Shown: positions 36,281-60,675 of the stretch, piece by piece | How positions within the stretch are numbered: position 1 is the first letter of the stretch | How the letters are laid out: every line of letters begins with the position of its first letter | Source: Thermotoga caldifontis AZM44c09 | GTDB lineage: Bacteria; Thermotogota; Thermotogae; Thermotogales; DSM-5069 | Assembly: GCF_000828655.1 (NCBI RefSeq) | Contig: NZ_AP014509.1 | Location: 868,001-932,000, forward strand | Reading direction: 5' to 3' | DNA length: 64,000 nt | Notes under the pieces: generated by a model | Database searches by the model: none | The model's input: the letters and a program-made list of their open reading frames with translations, nothing else | What the model was told of the DNA's origin: nothing | Program-made: the position numbers and the translations under genes

Positions 36281-36609
36281 ACGGAGAGGGACGGGTGGCC
36301 GCGGGTTCAACACCCGAGGAAAGTCCGGACTCCACAGGGCAGGGTGCTGGGTAATACCCAGGAGGAGCGATCCTCGGAAAGGGCCACAGAAACTTCAAAC
36401 CGCCCGAAAAGGGCAAGGGTGAAAAGGTGAGGTAAGAGCTCACCAGTGCTGGGGTGACCCAGCAGCTCGGTAACCCCCACCTGGAGCAAGGCCGAACAGG
36501 GGTGGGTGGCCCGCCCATAACCCCGGGTAGGCCGCTCGAGGAGGGTGGAAACGCTCTCCCCAGATAGATGGCCACCCTCGACAGAATCCGGCTTACAGTC
36601 CCTCTCCGT
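36281..36609 (+). ncRNA. rnpB: RNase P RNA, bacterial type A-like
   Basis: Catalytic RNA that cuts the 5' leader from pre-tRNA. Universally conserved parts are present: GAGGAAAGTCCGGAC (from about 36318), CACAGAAA, and near the 3' end GATAGATGGCCACC followed by GACAGAATCCGGCTTACAG (to about 36598). The ends pair as helix P1: ACGGAGAGGGA (36281-36291) with TCCCTCTCCGT (36599-36609), giving about 329 nucleotides. It starts 4 bases after fmt and has no terminator of its own before truA, so it is probably processed from the fmt-truA transcript. Confidence 0.96.
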
Positions 36610-36637
36610 GATTTTGATTCTGGAGGTGGTGTCGGTC

Positions 36638-46516: not shown

Positions 46517-46592
46517 TGGTGGCCAGGGGCGGAATCGAACCGCCGACACCTGGATTTTCAGTCCAGTGCTCTACCAACTGAGCTACCTGGCC
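46517..46592 (-). tRNA. tRNA-Phe (GAA)
   Basis: Minus strand, 76 nucleotides with encoded CCA. Acceptor GGCCAGG pairs with CCTGGCC, the anticodon stem CTGGA/TCCAG holds the loop CTGAAAA with anticodon GAA, and the T arm contains GGTTCGATTCC. Eight bases downstream of tRNA-Val and thus in the same transcript. Confidence 0.97.
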
Positions 46593-46600
46593 GCTTTCTT

Positions 46601-46675
46601 TGGTGGGTGCGGCAGGACTCGAACCTACGACCTTCTGCTCGTAAGGCAGACGCTCTCCCTCTGAGCTACGCACCC
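46601..46675 (-). tRNA. tRNA-Val (TAC)
   Basis: Minus strand, 75 nucleotides with encoded CCA. Acceptor GGGTGCG pairs with CGCACCC, the anticodon stem TCTGC/GCAGA holds the loop CTTACGA with anticodon TAC, and the T arm contains GGTTCGAGTCC. First of the two-tRNA unit. Confidence 0.97.
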
Positions 46676-50513: not shown

Positions 50514-50547
50514 ACGGTGCACCGTTCGACTTCAAACCGTTACCGTT
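50514..50547 (+). repeat. ACCGTT repeats and palindrome upstream of an RNA promoter
   Basis: A perfect 12-bp palindrome ACGGTGCACCGT at 50514-50525 is followed by two more ACCGTT copies at 50536 and 50542, the last ending one base before the -35 of the downstream promoter. This looks like a regulator binding cluster; no known regulator is encoded beside it. Confidence 0.45.
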
Positions 50548-50576
50548 TTGTAATGCCTTATCTCCGTATCTAATAA
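50548..50576 (+). promoter_or_regulatory. Promoter of the putative structured RNA
   Basis: TTGTAA (50548-50553), an exact 17-base spacer, TAATAA (50571-50576). Transcription would start near 50583, at the beginning of the 5' helix described for the RNA candidate. Confidence 0.55.
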
Positions 50577-50582
50577 GTGGAG

Positions 50583-50841
50583 CGCTCCAGAAGACGGTTT
50601 GACCCATCAGGCGGTAGGGTCTTAGCTTGGCCTTTGCCTGGTGCGTTGTCTTTCTGGTTGCGCTCCTTCTCGAGTCGAAAAGATAAAAAAATAAGGATTA
50701 AGAGTACCAGCACCGAGTGATTGAGGAGTGTCGCGCGGAGATAGAATCTCCTGTTCGTTCAAAAAGCGAATCAGAATTTTCCGGATCAGGAACGCTGAAT
50801 ATGGAAAGGTTGAGCCCCAGAGATGGGGCTTTTTTATTTTT
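50583..50841 (+). ncRNA. Putative structured noncoding RNA of unknown class
   Basis: A promoter at 50548 and a terminator at 50813 enclose about 255 bases without a credible ORF. Visible folding: a long-range helix pairs GCGC-CCAGA-AGAC (50582-50595) with GTCT-TCTGG-GCGC (50648-50663), with three bulged positions. Inside it GACCC (50601-50605) pairs with GGGTC (50617-50621), and the loop bases CAGGC (50608-50612) can pair with GCCTG (50636-50640), a possible pseudoknot. Downstream GGAGAT-AGA-ATCTCC forms a hairpin near 50744. It does not match RNase P, SRP, tmRNA or any riboswitch I recognise. It could be a small RNA or a leader-type sensor acting on the transporter genes downstream, though those have their own promoter. 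Confidence 0.5.
50813..50841 (+). terminator. Intrinsic terminator of the RNA candidate
   Basis: AGCCCC-AGAGAT-GGGGCT followed by TTTTTTATTTTT. A textbook terminator that ends no coding gene, which is the main evidence for a noncoding transcript upstream. Confidence 0.93.
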
Positions 50842-50869
50842 GATTTTGCCACGTGGCGTCTGGTATAAT
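50840..50869 (+). promoter_or_regulatory. Promoter of the tct operon with palindromic operator
   Basis: TTGATT (50840-50845), an 18-base spacer and an extended -10 TGGTATAAT (50861-50869). The spacer holds a perfect 10-bp palindrome GCCACGTGGC (50848-50857), placed so that a bound protein would block polymerase. Starts about 29 bases before the tctC ribosome site region. Confidence 0.7.
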
Positions 50870-50904
50870 TTTGGTGTGCCAAATCTGTGTGGGGAGGTAA
50901 GAGT

Positions 50905-51846
50905 ATGAAAGGCCGTGTGCTGGTGGCACTCCTTGTTTTACTCACTGTGGTTTCTCTCTTTGCCGAGAAGTTCCCGAGCAAACCCATCACCTACGTCATC
51001 TGTTTCGCACCCGGCGGAGAGTCAGACATAACAGCGCGTCTGCAACAGCCTTATCTGGAGAAGATCCTGGGAGTTCCGATCGTCATAACGTACAAAGAGG
51101 GCGGTGGAGGAGCTGTAGGCTGGACCGAACTCGTCAGCCGTGCCAAACCTGATGGTTACACGATCTACGGCACAAACTTGCCTCATACGATTCTTCAGCC
51201 GTTACAGGGTGGTGTTGGGTACAAGACCGAACAGATAAACAACATCTATTTCTTCCAGTCCACTCCGTGTGTACTCGCTGTCAGTGCCGACAGTCCAATA
51301 AAAACGTTCCAGGATTTTGTCGAGTACGCCAAGAAGAAAGGTATCGTTACCCTGGGCGGGAGCGGTCAACCGTCTGCAAACAGTTTTGCAACCGTGAGGC
51401 TCGCCAAACTCACGGGTTTGAACATCACATACGTTCCGTTCTCGGGTTCCGGCACGGCTGTGCCGGCACTCCTTGGAGGACACGTTGATGGTTTGATGAC
51501 CTACACGACCATGGCAGTGCAATACAAAGATAAAATGAGAGTCATCGCGGTGGCCACCGAAGAGAGAATCCCGCTCTTTCCAGATGTGCCGACGTTCAGA
51601 GAACTTGGAATCGATCTGGTTGAGAAGGCGTACAGGGGAATCGCCGTGCCTCCAGGAACCTCTGAAGATGTCAAAAGGATGCTTGAAGAAGCTTTCAGGC
51701 AGGTCAACAACAATCCAGAATTCGTAGCCAAGATGCAGGAGATGGGATTCGTCATAGAGAATTACGACGAGGCAGCGGCGGCCAAGCTCGTCGCGGAATT
51801 GATACCTTACTACAAGCAACTCTGGGAAGAGACCCAGGGCAAATGA
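50905..51846 (+). CDS. TctC-type solute-binding protein of a tripartite tricarboxylate transporter
   Basis: Extracytoplasmic Bug/TctC receptor that captures carboxylates for the TctAB permease. Signal peptide MKGRVLVALLVLLTVVSLFAE without lipobox (in part); family features KPITYVICFAPGGESDITARL (in part), GGSGQPSANSFATVRL (about 149-164) and the ligand loop PFSGSGTAVPALLGGHVDG. ATG 50905 behind GGGGAGG. 313 residues. Terminator follows before tctA, so the receptor is probably made in excess over the permease. Confidence 0.94.
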   Translation: MKGRVLVALLVLLTVVSLFAEKFPSKPITYVICFAPGGESDITARLQQPYLEKILGVPIVITYKEGGGGAVGWTELVSRAKPDGYTIYGTNLPHTILQPLQGGVGYKTEQINNIYFFQSTPCVLAVSADSPIKTFQDFVEYAKKKGIVTLGGSGQPSANSFATVRLAKLTGLNITYVPFSGSGTAVPALLGGHVDGLMTYTTMAVQYKDKMRVIAVATEERIPLFPDVPTFRELGIDLVEKAYRGIAVPPGTSEDVKRMLEEAFRQVNNNPEFVAKMQEMGFVIENYDEAAAAKLVAELIPYYKQLWEETQGK

Positions 51847-51855
51847 AGATTCCCT

Positions 51856-51884
51856 CCCGCACCCGTGTTGGGTGCGGGTTTTTT
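51856..51884 (+). terminator. Terminator between tctC and tctA
   Basis: CCCGCACCC-GTGTT-GGGTGCGGG followed by TTTTTT. A strong stem inside the operon; partial read-through would give more binding protein than permease, a common device in import operons. Confidence 0.92.
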
Positions 51885-51901
51885 GAAAGGGGGAAAAGTT
51901 C

Positions 51902-53422
51902 TTGGCTGGCCTTCAATATCTTGCCTACGGTTTTGCACACTTTTTTGTCTTCAAGACCGTTCTGTTGATGCTGGGTGGGGTATGCGTAGGCTTGGTTATT
52001 GGAGCTCTTCCAGGTTTGAGTGCTACGATGGGTGTGGCGCTGTTTCTTCCCGTCACTTACTGGCTTTCCCCGTCTGAGAGTCTGGTGTTCTTGGGATCTC
52101 TCTACATGGCAGCGATCTACGGTGGTTCTTTCTCGGCGATTCTGTTGAGAACTCCAGGAACTCCTTCCAACATAGGAACAACGTTCGACGGCTATCCCAT
52201 GGCCAAACAGGGTAGAGGCTGGGAAGCTATCCTGACTGCAACTTTTTCTTCTCTGTATGGTGGATTGTTCGGTTTGATCATGTTTCTCATCTTTGCTCCC
52301 ATGCTCGCGCGGGTCGCATTGAAATTCGGCCCTCCCGAATACTTCTGGCTCGGTATATTCGGTCTGACGGTGATATCTTCACTCTCGCGAGGGAACACTC
52401 TGAAGGGCTTCATAGGCGGTTTGATCGGAGTTCTGTTGAGCACCGTAGGCGTCGCGCCCGTCGGAGGGAACGTGCGCTTCACCTTCAACATCCCCGAACT
52501 CATCGGTGGAGTTGGGTTGATACCAGCGCTGGTGGGACTGTTCTGTATACCTGAAGTCATCGACATGGTCCTGAACAGATCAAAAAAGCAGCTGTACCAG
52601 GAAGCGAGGGTACAGGAAGGAATGATCTGGAAAACGTTCGTCAGCGTCATGAAGAAGCAGGTGGATCTGTTGAGAGCCTCAATTATTGGTTTCATCATAG
52701 GCGTGTTGCCGGGCGCTGGTGGTAACATCGCGAACCTGGTGGCTTACAGTGAGGCTGTCAGGGCTTCGAAACATCCAGAGAAGTTTGGAACGGGTATCCC
52801 TGAAGGTGTGATAGCCACGGAGACCTCGAACAACGCGGTGGTTGGAGGAGGTTTTGTTCCACTCATGACGCTCGGTGTTCCTGGTACACCCGTGGACGCG
52901 ATTCTCTATGGGGCTTTACTCATGCAAGGTCTAAGACCTGGTGCAGAGCTTTTCACAAGAAGAGCCGATGTGGTCTACACCTTCATAGCTGGAGTCATTG
53001 TGGCAACTTTCGTTATGGTCCCGATTGGTCTGGCTTTCGGTAGAGCGATGGCGAAGTTCATCACCAAAATTCCGCTGAGCTTGCTTGCCCCCACGGTACT
53101 CTTCCTGACGATGGTGGGTTCTTACTGCGTGAGTAACAATATATCTGATGTGTACATGATGCTAATACTCGGAGTGTTAGGTTTCGTTTTGAGAAAACTC
53201 GGTTTCGAAGCTGGGCCCATAACGTTGGGTTTGATACTTGGTCCCATCATCGAAACGGGACTCGTTCAGGGACTGCTGATAGGAAGAAAGTTCGCGCGAC
53301 CTTGGTTGATCTTCTTCGCCAGGCCTTTGTGCTGGGTGTTCATAGTACTTTCCGTGTTCTTTTTGTTCTGGCCTGTCATTATGAAAAAGCGCATGATCGT
53401 CTCCGGTGGTGATCAGAGATGA
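51902..53422 (+). CDS. TctA-type large permease subunit
   Basis: Twelve-helix membrane subunit of the tripartite tricarboxylate transporter, driven by an ion gradient. Signature region GLVIGALPGLSATMGVALFLP (about 30-50 in part), AIYGGSFSAILLRTPGTPSNIGTTFDGYP (in part), and the second-half repeat GVLPGAGGNIANLVAYSEA (about 266-284) are clear. TTG start at 51902 with GGGGGA upstream. 506 residues. Confidence 0.95.
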   Translation: MAGLQYLAYGFAHFFVFKTVLLMLGGVCVGLVIGALPGLSATMGVALFLPVTYWLSPSESLVFLGSLYMAAIYGGSFSAILLRTPGTPSNIGTTFDGYPMAKQGRGWEAILTATFSSLYGGLFGLIMFLIFAPMLARVALKFGPPEYFWLGIFGLTVISSLSRGNTLKGFIGGLIGVLLSTVGVAPVGGNVRFTFNIPELIGGVGLIPALVGLFCIPEVIDMVLNRSKKQLYQEARVQEGMIWKTFVSVMKKQVDLLRASIIGFIIGVLPGAGGNIANLVAYSEAVRASKHPEKFGTGIPEGVIATETSNNAVVGGGFVPLMTLGVPGTPVDAILYGALLMQGLRPGAELFTRRADVVYTFIAGVIVATFVMVPIGLAFGRAMAKFITKIPLSLLAPTVLFLTMVGSYCVSNNISDVYMMLILGVLGFVLRKLGFEAGPITLGLILGPIIETGLVQGLLIGRKFARPWLIFFARPLCWVFIVLSVFFLFWPVIMKKRMIVSGGDQR

Positions 53423-53871
53423 TGGTCGATGTCGCAACCGCCACGGTGATTTTGATTCTGAGCGTGGTTCTTTTCAACCAGACAAGGAATTACAATTACC
53501 TGTCCGCCGTGTTCCCACGCTTTGTTCTGGGACTGTTGATGATCCTCTCCATCGTTCTGCTCATCAGGGCGATATTGCTGTTCAGGAAACGTGAGCGGGC
53601 CGAGTCGAGTTTCATTCCCTTGAAGGATCTCTTCTATGTTGCTCTCACGATCGTTCTGAGCCTTTTGTGGATTTATGTGATGGATTGGGTACTCGGTTTT
53701 CTGCTGGGCAGCATCGTTTTTGGCATCGTGATTTTTGCGATCCTGGCTGGGAGGAGTTTGAAGCTGAGAGAATTCTTGCTGTTCTCCCTCGGCTATTCGG
53801 GGATCGTTTTCATCTTCTGGTACTCGCTCGGGAAGCTTCTGCGTGTGCCACTACCCAGAGGACTCTTCTAA
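53419..53871 (+). CDS. TctB-type small permease subunit
   Basis: Small four-helix membrane subunit of the same transporter. 150 residues with hydrophobic segments near 6-22, 35-57, 76-95 and 99-140; sequence conservation is low in this family and the call rests on size, topology and position. ATGA overlap with tctA. Confidence 0.88.
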   Translation: MMVDVATATVILILSVVLFNQTRNYNYLSAVFPRFVLGLLMILSIVLLIRAILLFRKRERAESSFIPLKDLFYVALTIVLSLLWIYVMDWVLGFLLGSIVFGIVIFAILAGRSLKLREFLLFSLGYSGIVFIFWYSLGKLLRVPLPRGLF

Positions 53872-53885
53872 CGGAGGTGTAGAAA

Positions 53886-55217
53886 ATGGATCAAAACAGG
53901 AACGTGGAAGAACTTCTGAAGAAGGCCCAAAAGCCGTCCGAAGAGGCTTTGAAATTGCATTCCTTTTACAAAGGCAAGATTCAAACGGCACCAAAGGTGC
54001 CTGTCAGATCGTACGATGATTTCGCGATCTGGTATACCCCAGGAGTGGCGAGGGTGTGTCAAGAGATCGTGAAGGATCCTTCGAAGGTTTACGAGTACAC
54101 GAACAAAGAGAACACCATCGCTATTGTCACCGACGGAACGAGGATTCTGGGACTTGGAGACATCGGGCCTGAGGCAGGTTTGCCCGTCATGGAGGGCAAA
54201 GCGTTGCTCTTCAAATACCTCGGTGGTGTAGACGCCATACCTCTGTGCGTCGGTACGAAAAACATCGATGAGATCGTTCAGTTCTGCAAATGGTTGTCAC
54301 CGAGCATATCAGGGATAAATCTGGAAGACGTCGAAAAGCCCAAATGTTTCGAGTTGCTCGAAAGACTTCAGGAAGAACTCTCCATCCCGGTGTTCCACGA
54401 CGACCAACAAGGGACTGCGACGATCACCCTTGCAGGACTGATCAACGCGCTGAGGATCGTTGGAAAGAAGATGAACGAAGTGAGGATCACTCTTATAGGT
54501 GCGGGTAGTGCGAACTACGCGTTCGCAAGGCTTCTGGAAAAGATGGGCGTGGATCTGGGTAACGTGATCGTCGTTGATTCGAAGGGAATAATAACGAAGG
54601 ATCGAGCGCAACAGCTCGATCCCACCACGAGCCGTATGTGGATCAAAACCAACGCGCGCAACGTCACCGGGGGGATAGAAGAATCACTGGTAGGAGCAGA
54701 TGTCTGTATCGCTTATTCAAAGAGCGGTCCCGGTGTGATCAAGCCCGAATGGGTGAAGAAGATGAACAGAGATGCGATCGTCTTCGCCGGGGCGAATCCT
54801 GTGCCCGAGATCTGGCCGTGGGAGGCGAAAGAGGCGGGAGCCAGGATCGTTGCGACGGGTCGCAGCGATTTTCCCAACCAGGTGAACAACTCACTCGGGT
54901 TCCCCGCGATCTTCAGAGGTGTGCTGGACGTGCGCGCCACGAAGGTAACCGATGAGATGTGCATCGCTGCGGCTCAGGCGATAGCCGATTTTGCTTACAG
55001 GAAAGGTATCCATGAGGAATACATCGTGCCCACGATGGAGGAAGAGGAAGTTTACGTCGAAGAAGCCTTCGCGGTGGCCAAAAAAGCGATCGAACAGGGT
55101 GTGGCGAGGAACCCACTCCCAGACGATGAACTGCTCAGAAAGATAAGGGAAAGGATCGACATGGGCAGGCAGATGGAAAAGGTATTGGTTCGCTCGGGAT
55201 TGGTAAAACTCCCGTGA
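53886..55217 (+). CDS. Malic enzyme (malate dehydrogenase, decarboxylating)
   Basis: Oxidatively decarboxylates malate to pyruvate with NAD or NADP. Motifs: WYTPGVARVC (about 49-58, catalytic Tyr), VMEGKALLFKYLGGVDAIPL (in part, catalytic Lys), FHDDQQGTATIT (about 171-182, metal site) and the dinucleotide motif LIGAGSANYAFARLL (about 204-218). 443 residues, the short bacterial form. The location directly after a carboxylate transporter suggests it acts on the imported acid or its product, linking it to pyruvate. Confidence 0.94.
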   Translation: MDQNRNVEELLKKAQKPSEEALKLHSFYKGKIQTAPKVPVRSYDDFAIWYTPGVARVCQEIVKDPSKVYEYTNKENTIAIVTDGTRILGLGDIGPEAGLPVMEGKALLFKYLGGVDAIPLCVGTKNIDEIVQFCKWLSPSISGINLEDVEKPKCFELLERLQEELSIPVFHDDQQGTATITLAGLINALRIVGKKMNEVRITLIGAGSANYAFARLLEKMGVDLGNVIVVDSKGIITKDRAQQLDPTTSRMWIKTNARNVTGGIEESLVGADVCIAYSKSGPGVIKPEWVKKMNRDAIVFAGANPVPEIWPWEAKEAGARIVATGRSDFPNQVNNSLGFPAIFRGVLDVRATKVTDEMCIAAAQAIADFAYRKGIHEEYIVPTMEEEEVYVEEAFAVAKKAIEQGVARNPLPDDELLRKIRERIDMGRQMEKVLVRSGLVKLP

Positions 55218-60521: not shown

Positions 60522-60545
60522 AAAAGAGGAACCGAAAAGTGAATA

Positions 60546-60645
60546 GTTTCACCTGGGGAGCTCCTAATCCGGGGCTGAGAGGAGGACGGAAGTCCTCGAC
60601 CCATTGAACCTGATCCGGGTAATGCCGGCGCAGGGAGAGTGAAAT
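60546..60645 (+). promoter_or_regulatory. TPP riboswitch (THI element)
   Basis: All core elements are present: GGGGAGC, GGGGCTGAGAGGAG, ACCCATTGAACCTGATCCGGGTAATGCC in pieces between 60555 and 60630, closed by helix P1 (TTTCAC 60547-60552 with GTGAAA 60639-60644). A strong terminator follows directly, so binding of TPP should stop transcription of the importer. Confidence 0.97.
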
Positions 60646-60650
60646 ATCTC

Positions 60651-60675
60651 AACCCGTCGGCGACGGGTTTTTGTT
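60651..60675 (+). terminator. Riboswitch expression-platform terminator
   Basis: AACCCGTC-GGC-GACGGGTT followed by TTTTGTTTT. It lies between the riboswitch and the first gene and is the likely off-switch. Confidence 0.9.

Follow-up and report, generated by a model that had tools for sequence, protein, structure and literature searches.

The question raised by this locus is whether the roughly 260 nucleotides preceding tricarboxylate transporter genes constitute an RNA gene of their own and, if so, to which class of RNAs it belongs and what directs its transcription. An earlier note on the window (the whole stretch of 64 kb analysed here) had described it as an orphan RNA running from promoter to terminator; conservation, copy number and partial covariation support a stand-alone RNA with a long-range helix, whereas the term orphan has to be abandoned in view of about 11 paralogs in the same genome. 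Our preferred reading, to which we assign a probability of roughly 0.6, is that of a stand-alone non-coding RNA of about 260 nt, one of about 11 siblings transcribed from a common promoter distinct from that of sigma-A, with a divergent sigma protein as the likely reader and an action in trans.

The proposed gene extends from 50579 to 50838 on the forward strand, as do all features of the window given below. Blastn searches against 60 related genomes returned a syntenic ortholog with 81% identity in the genome G001 (G000 denotes the genome of the window, G001, G002, G003, G004 etc. related genomes, and L-numbers individual loci); the other matches were short, and their flanks turned out to be further copies of the same family. 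The textbook terminator recognised earlier is confirmed as the stem-loop GAGCCCCAGAGATGGGGCTT at 50812-50831, with a stem of 8 pairs followed by a T-run. The same GCCCC...GGGGC terminator closes many other copies, and most of the copies checked have terminators, some copies showing no strong one by a simple pattern. The downstream TctC gene, identified by Pfam, is preceded by a separate sigma-A-like promoter at 50840-50869 (TTGATT-N18-TATAAT with a TG before the -10, from a promoter scan), suggesting that the RNA is an independent unit and that a cis-acting leader is unlikely. Judged by these sequence features the stretch is a genuine stand-alone non-coding RNA gene with a predicted start near 50579 and its own predicted terminator. 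In the same direction, positions 50887-55217 following the RNA gene contain the tripartite tricarboxylate transporter genes TctC and TctA (Pfam) as well as an ORF resembling malic enzyme, which was named by eye.

The earlier note had recognised no known RNA class and had proposed a search of Rfam, and indeed none of 4227 families reached its gathering threshold, while a permissive search gave chance-level matches only. Neither tmRNA nor tRNA was detected in the window RNA by ARAGORN or Rfam, and 13 other family loci gave no match to an Rfam family, just a tRNA nearby. Like 6S RNA, the predicted transcript is a long hairpin-like RNA of similar size; unlike 6S RNA, it is present in many copies per genome and has no Rfam match up to E = 10, the 6S covariance model included. 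Within the whole window, Rfam matches are limited to an RNase P RNA (36283-36611), a TPP riboswitch (60544-60654) and two tRNA genes for Phe and Val (46520-46675).

What the copies have in common begins upstream of the transcript. An alignment of 78 promoters shows a conserved -35-like element GTTACC, located at 50539-50544 in the window, and a -10-like element, CGTATCTA at 50565-50572, whose CGTAT is conserved to 97-100%; the family consensus GTTACC-N20-CGTATMTA corresponds to window positions 50539-50572. When the 78 promoters are anchored on CGTAT, GTT is found at -25 to -23, AA at -12/-11 and G at both +15 and +16, and the predicted transcripts begin with GG. The pattern GTTACC-N18..21-CGTATMTA occurs once in the 64 kb window, compared with 0 expected occurrences. 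A profile of the promoter only (R2), trained partly on the sites it retrieves, gave a single match in the window (50535-50580, E=0.0004). In the complete genome it gave ten matches at E < 0.1, corresponding to eight RNA genes and two operons and to nothing else; the other three RNA genes, which the profile R1 described below detects, have poorer scores or escape it, and an additional match with E 0.25 does not rise above chance. As R2 was trained on such sites, this limits the claim that no other gene has this promoter.

At least 59 intergenic copies of the RNA were listed from Pseudothermotoga and its sister genus g4. The genome of the window holds 11 of them, including the window copy, and each has a counterpart in G001 with 75-96% identity over RNA bases 1-70 and 54-88% over bases 71-230. 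A scan of 61 genomes for the -10 element followed by a palindrome (see below) yielded 30 sites, all in five Pseudothermotoga genomes, and no site in the other 56. The profile R1, which comprises the promoter and the first ~82 nt of the RNA, detected 13 sites in G000, 14 in G001, 17 each in G002 as well as G004 and just two in G003, with weak matches in g4. Applied to 103 Thermotogota genomes at E < 0.001 it matched only Pseudothermotoga, g4 and the DUF1659 promoters of genus g12; the RNA family is absent from the remaining Thermotogota among these genomes as well as from Rfam, and R1 finds no copy in G006, a single-contig genome of the same taxonomic family. In a GTDB-wide pattern scan, sites elsewhere were, among the matches listed, nearly always single and chance-like, several sites being seen in Pseudothermotoga sp. 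RSWP20 only.

All copies checked in G000 and G008 are intergenic with functionally unrelated neighbours, among which no functional pattern was found, and the genes downstream of most copies checked form separate units. The paralogous copies are strongly diverged from each other. They share a degenerate core motif with the consensus YAUUGG-N5-GGUCUAA-NYCGUUGG, placed at 50624-50650 in the window by our alignment A2 and the family listing. The exact core pattern is confined to family copies in the 61 genomes, where it turned up no trans target; the window copy is a weak and inexact match to it. The combination of a shared core motif with variable 3' halves suggests trans-acting sibling RNAs. Several paralogous stand-alone genes per genome under a shared promoter other than that of sigma-A were found, as was a terminator of their own, and on these grounds the window RNA is a predicted member of a family of sibling small RNAs under a promoter distinct from that of sigma-A.

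A recurrent structural feature of the RNAs is a long-range helix, P1, in which GGAGCGC at 50579-50585 pairs with GCGCUCC at 50660-50666. It is continued by P1b, formed by CCAGAAGAC (50587-50595) and GUCUUUCUGG (50648-50657) with one bulge, which is kept in the G001 ortholog with one G-C to G-U change. The interrupted helix between 50582-50595 and 50648-50663 postulated in the earlier note is therefore real, although it starts 3 bases earlier, runs to 50666 and comprises 16 pairs in all. The folding energy of the window RNA has a z of -3.5, with 1 of 200 dinucleotide shuffles folding as well. In the class of RNAs beginning with GGGAGCGC, the first 7-10 bases are complementary to a segment ~80-180 nt downstream. 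P1 is found in about 39 copies, reaches p <= 0.05 against shuffles in 36 of the 59, and on 25 distinct rows pairs in 96.5% of the cells, as compared with 33-70% in slid controls; about a third of the copies lack it (L217, L219-L221 and all copies of g4). Compensatory changes, which had been named in advance as the observation that would support the proposed helices, are seen in the outer helix, where two double compensations occur (G-C to A-U in L247 and, at the outermost pair, G-C to U-A in L046). Variation in P1 mostly takes the form of G-C to G-U changes in the 3' strand, which one would expect of a helix whose 5' side is held by the promoter or the palindrome, and covariation is thin because the 5' strand is nearly invariant.

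The interior of the helix did not stand up to the same comparison. Neither the enclosed hairpin of the earlier note nor the loop pairing that would make its pseudoknot is conserved in the G001 ortholog, and the inner helix of the minimum-energy fold of the window copy is lost there as well. One conserved inner fold for the whole family was considered and rejected, as individual copies fold differently and a P2 hairpin lies weakly above chance (10 of 59 copies at p <= 0.05). Folding the window copy and its G001 ortholog to a consensus of the two sequences yields a tentative candidate hairpin, AGGGUC-UUAGCUU-GGCCUU, at 50616-50634.

The very 5' end of the RNA carries a palindrome, TGGAGCGCTCCA at 50578-50589, the start near 50579 being deduced from the fixed spacing to the -10; GGAGCGCTCC occurs nowhere else in the window. 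Perfect palindromes of at least 8 bases lie within the first 18 nt of 67 of the 74 5' ends of the regulon, compared with 3.6% of downstream control windows. About 13 different palindromes are used, several of them within one genome (e.g. GGAGATCTCC, GGGAACGTTCCC, GGAAGCGCTTCC and GGGAGCTCCC); the 74 ends include related, non-independent copies, whereas the number of different palindromes is unaffected by kinship. Since a hairpin alone needs no palindromic loop, the two-fold symmetry itself appears to be selected, and selection seems to act on self-complementarity and not on the sequence of the palindrome.

A DNA operator, too, would be expected to show perfect two-fold symmetry at a constant distance from the -10, and the strongest rival explanation holds that GGAGCGCTCC at the start of the transcript is bound by a LacI-type or similar dimeric regulator, so that a repressor and not a sigma factor defines the regulon and the RNA pairing is secondary. 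The palindrome does precede protein operons as well, and its invariant GCGCTC exceeds what P1 requires. However, a dimer that binds one specific DNA sequence would keep that sequence constant, whereas the palindromes vary freely within one genome with their palindromy kept; a LacI-type operator would be recognised by one palindrome sequence conserved ahead of several operons, which was not found. Away from the promoters, G000 contains two GGAGCGCTCC sites, both inside coding frames, and none at a sugar operon. In addition, the operons of g4 and the extra operons of G001 (see below) carry GGGAG/CUCCC arms that are asymmetric about the centre, which together with the varying sequence favours a role in RNA over binding of a DNA dimer. 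We regard an operator as unlikely, and favour a palindrome that would act in the RNA, as a paired 5' end or possibly in a self-dimer. As a pairing site shared by small RNAs and operons it was discarded, as the palindromes of g4 RNAs and g4 operons differ. The P2 hairpin, too, is in many cases perfectly palindromic through its tetraloop (CCAGGATCCTGG, GACAGATCTGTC, GGTTCGAACC, CCGTCCGGACGG; seen among L225, L228, L229, L231, L218, L042 and L244), which echoes the palindrome of the 5' end.

The two operons of G000 that share the promoter of the RNAs point to a candidate for its reader. The first codes for proteins assigned by Pfam to DUF1659 and DUF2922, the second for a holin-like protein, whose match is below the cut-off, and for a protein of ~117 amino acids resembling sigma-70 region 2. 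Many Thermotogota, G003 among them, have the genes for the DUF1659, DUF2922, holin-like and sigma-like proteins grouped together. Of the 61 genomes, 44 encode the sigma-like protein and 46 a DUF1659 protein. The orthologs of G004, G046 and G052 pass the Pfam Sigma70_r2 cut-off, those of G046 and G052 have a region-4-like C-terminus, and a profile of the family matches FliA at 3e-5 as well as SigA/SigH structures in the PDB. The G000 protein alone has no Pfam match and is without region 4, suggesting that it might need a partner or might not be the activator; among the proteins of G000, which encodes four other sigma factors, no dedicated region-4 partner was identified. The -10 of the DUF1659 operon promoter (CGTATACTATATWATGG) is identical in three families (f1, f2 and f8), so that promoter and sigma-like gene are associated well outside the lineages that have the RNAs. 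From this association, the small divergent sigma-70-family protein is the likely reader of the shared promoter.

Several observations concern the operon itself. It is represented by L178:2233-2918 (G000:C1:1478233-1478918) and L184:5627-6700, and most Thermotogota have conserved it as DUF1659-DUF2922-holin-like-sigma70_r2-like. Its neighbours in G003 are genes resembling recT, DnaD and cI (named from sequence by eye), which suggests a phage-derived origin. Sigma-like orthologs in G049, G046 and G052 (L315, L316 and L317) contain an extra C-terminal helix-turn-helix, with a weak region 4 match in G046 and G052, and the short Pseudothermotoga form looks reduced by comparison. Two extra DUF1659-DUF2922-sigma operons of G001 (G001:C4:538 and G001:C1:531721) are of g4 type, with a g4-type promoter and leader, and were possibly acquired horizontally.

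Put together, these elements would form a circuit as follows. The divergent sigma protein would read GTTACC-N20-CGTATMTA and so activate its own operon along with a burst of sibling RNAs, each starting with a self-complementary GG... element. In the main class, pairing of the 5' end in P1 with a complement ~80-110 nt downstream would hide it and thereby stabilise the RNA, and transcription would stop at the intrinsic terminator. The common core motif (UUGG...GGUCUAA...CGUUGG) would contact a common partner, which could be a protein or an RNA, and each sibling would find targets of its own through its variable 3' half. Evident from the sequences themselves are a family with a common promoter, the helix P1, the 5' palindrome, the intrinsic terminator and the homology to sigma-70; from these we infer the reading of the promoter by the sigma protein, the stabilisation of the RNA, its action in trans, a target and the mechanism. 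A more elaborate version, which we consider rather doubtful, is that of a dedicated sigma regulon consisting of its own operon, one linked small-protein operon and a dozen non-coding RNAs, each of which would recognise itself through its 5' end in a homodimer or switch between a local hairpin and P1, with the DUF1659 and DUF2922 proteins as possible RNA partners.

The statement that the stretch is without an ORF is not literally true, as GTG-started frames of 47 (50577-50720) and 63 amino acids (50717-50908) are present. Another rival reading is that the transcripts are short mRNAs for small peptides, starting at an ATG or GTG near the beginning or using a YIGIGLIR frame over the core. The core is indeed open in some copies (L224, L228), and the pair L021/L032 differs by a 3-base indel and some synonymous-looking changes. 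In the syntenic copy of G001, however, a 1-base indel and a premature stop disrupt the 47-residue frame. Orthologs show in-frame stops in L046 for the window frame, in L024 and L044 (TGA) for the core frame and in L231 (TAA) before the core, L028 and L046 are separated by a 1-base indel, and there is no common start or frame. As frames and stops differ between orthologs, a coding function is improbable.

Very improbable, too, is a dispersed repeat or miniature mobile element with incidental promoter and structure: although the copies are numerous, intergenic and have inverted repeats at one end, every G000 copy has a G001 ortholog in related surroundings, phage and plasmid collections gave no match, and the paralogs are strongly diverged and mostly end in an intrinsic terminator. 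We give equally little credit to the original picture of an orphan, sigma-A-driven RNA with a pseudoknot. Its promoter, TTGTAA-N17-TAATAA, can be read at a 17-base spacing, but it fails a sigma-70 scan, its hexamers are not conserved among family members and the elements that are conserved sit elsewhere; the many paralogs and the loop pairing that is not kept also speak against this picture. A CsrB/RsmZ-type RNA titrating CsrA through many GGA motifs can practically be dismissed, since GGA is not enriched (133 observed against 135 +/- 9 in dinucleotide shuffles), even if the presence of several RNA copies behind one common upstream element recalls the arrangement of rsmX/Y/Z.

The preferred reading, a family of sibling RNAs under one alternative promoter, has counterparts in well-known systems. 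Sibling small RNAs under a single alternative sigma factor or activator include Qrr with sigma-54, RybB/MicA with sigma-E and LhrC in Listeria. Like these, the present RNAs are several diverged paralogous intergenic RNAs per genome with one regulatory promoter and intrinsic terminators; unlike them, they belong to another phylum, share their promoter with a divergent sigma-70 region-2 protein and carry a 5' palindrome of variable sequence, and no other protein regulon was detected here. Group V sigma factors are accompanied by holin partners, as in TcdR/TcdE and UviA/UviB. The similarity lies in a divergent, probably autoregulated sigma gene beside a holin-like gene (with the holin match below cut-off), the difference in the regulon, in which no toxin or bacteriocin gene was found and the other detectable outputs are non-coding RNAs. 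In B. subtilis, a region-2 protein and a region-4 protein, SigO and RsoA, jointly activate their own operons (PMC8103513), and this pair is known to act on oxdC, yvrJ and its own operon but is not known to control RNAs (PMC8103513, PMC10028694). The Thermotogota protein likewise is small, sigma region-2-like and apparently drives its own operon; in contrast to SigO-RsoA, a separate region-4 subunit was not identified here and some Thermotogota orthologs have a region-4-like tail.

Very little is known about regulatory RNAs of the deep-branching Thermotogota. A transcriptome study of Thermotoga maritima lists 12-13 non-coding RNA candidates, by its own account without definable structure (PMC3636130); they come from the same phylum as the window RNA, but G006, a genome of the same family, has no copy. 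No earlier report of the present RNAs was found in the open literature searched. The promoter common to the RNAs and the sigma operon suggests a regulatory circuit, unreported so far, that has RNAs as its main detectable outputs. If this is true, each genome would offer a defined set of about a dozen RNA genes together with their promoter motif and a candidate for the sigma factor, and the widespread but unexplained DUF1659-DUF2922-holin-like-sigma operon, which is present in most Thermotogota genomes searched, would obtain a function.

Finally, two g4 copies, L224 in G009 and L228 in G008, contain C-rich stretches, GCCTCCT and CTCCCCCAACCC, whose complement lies in the Shine-Dalgarno region of the gene that follows downstream, so that these two could also regulate in cis.
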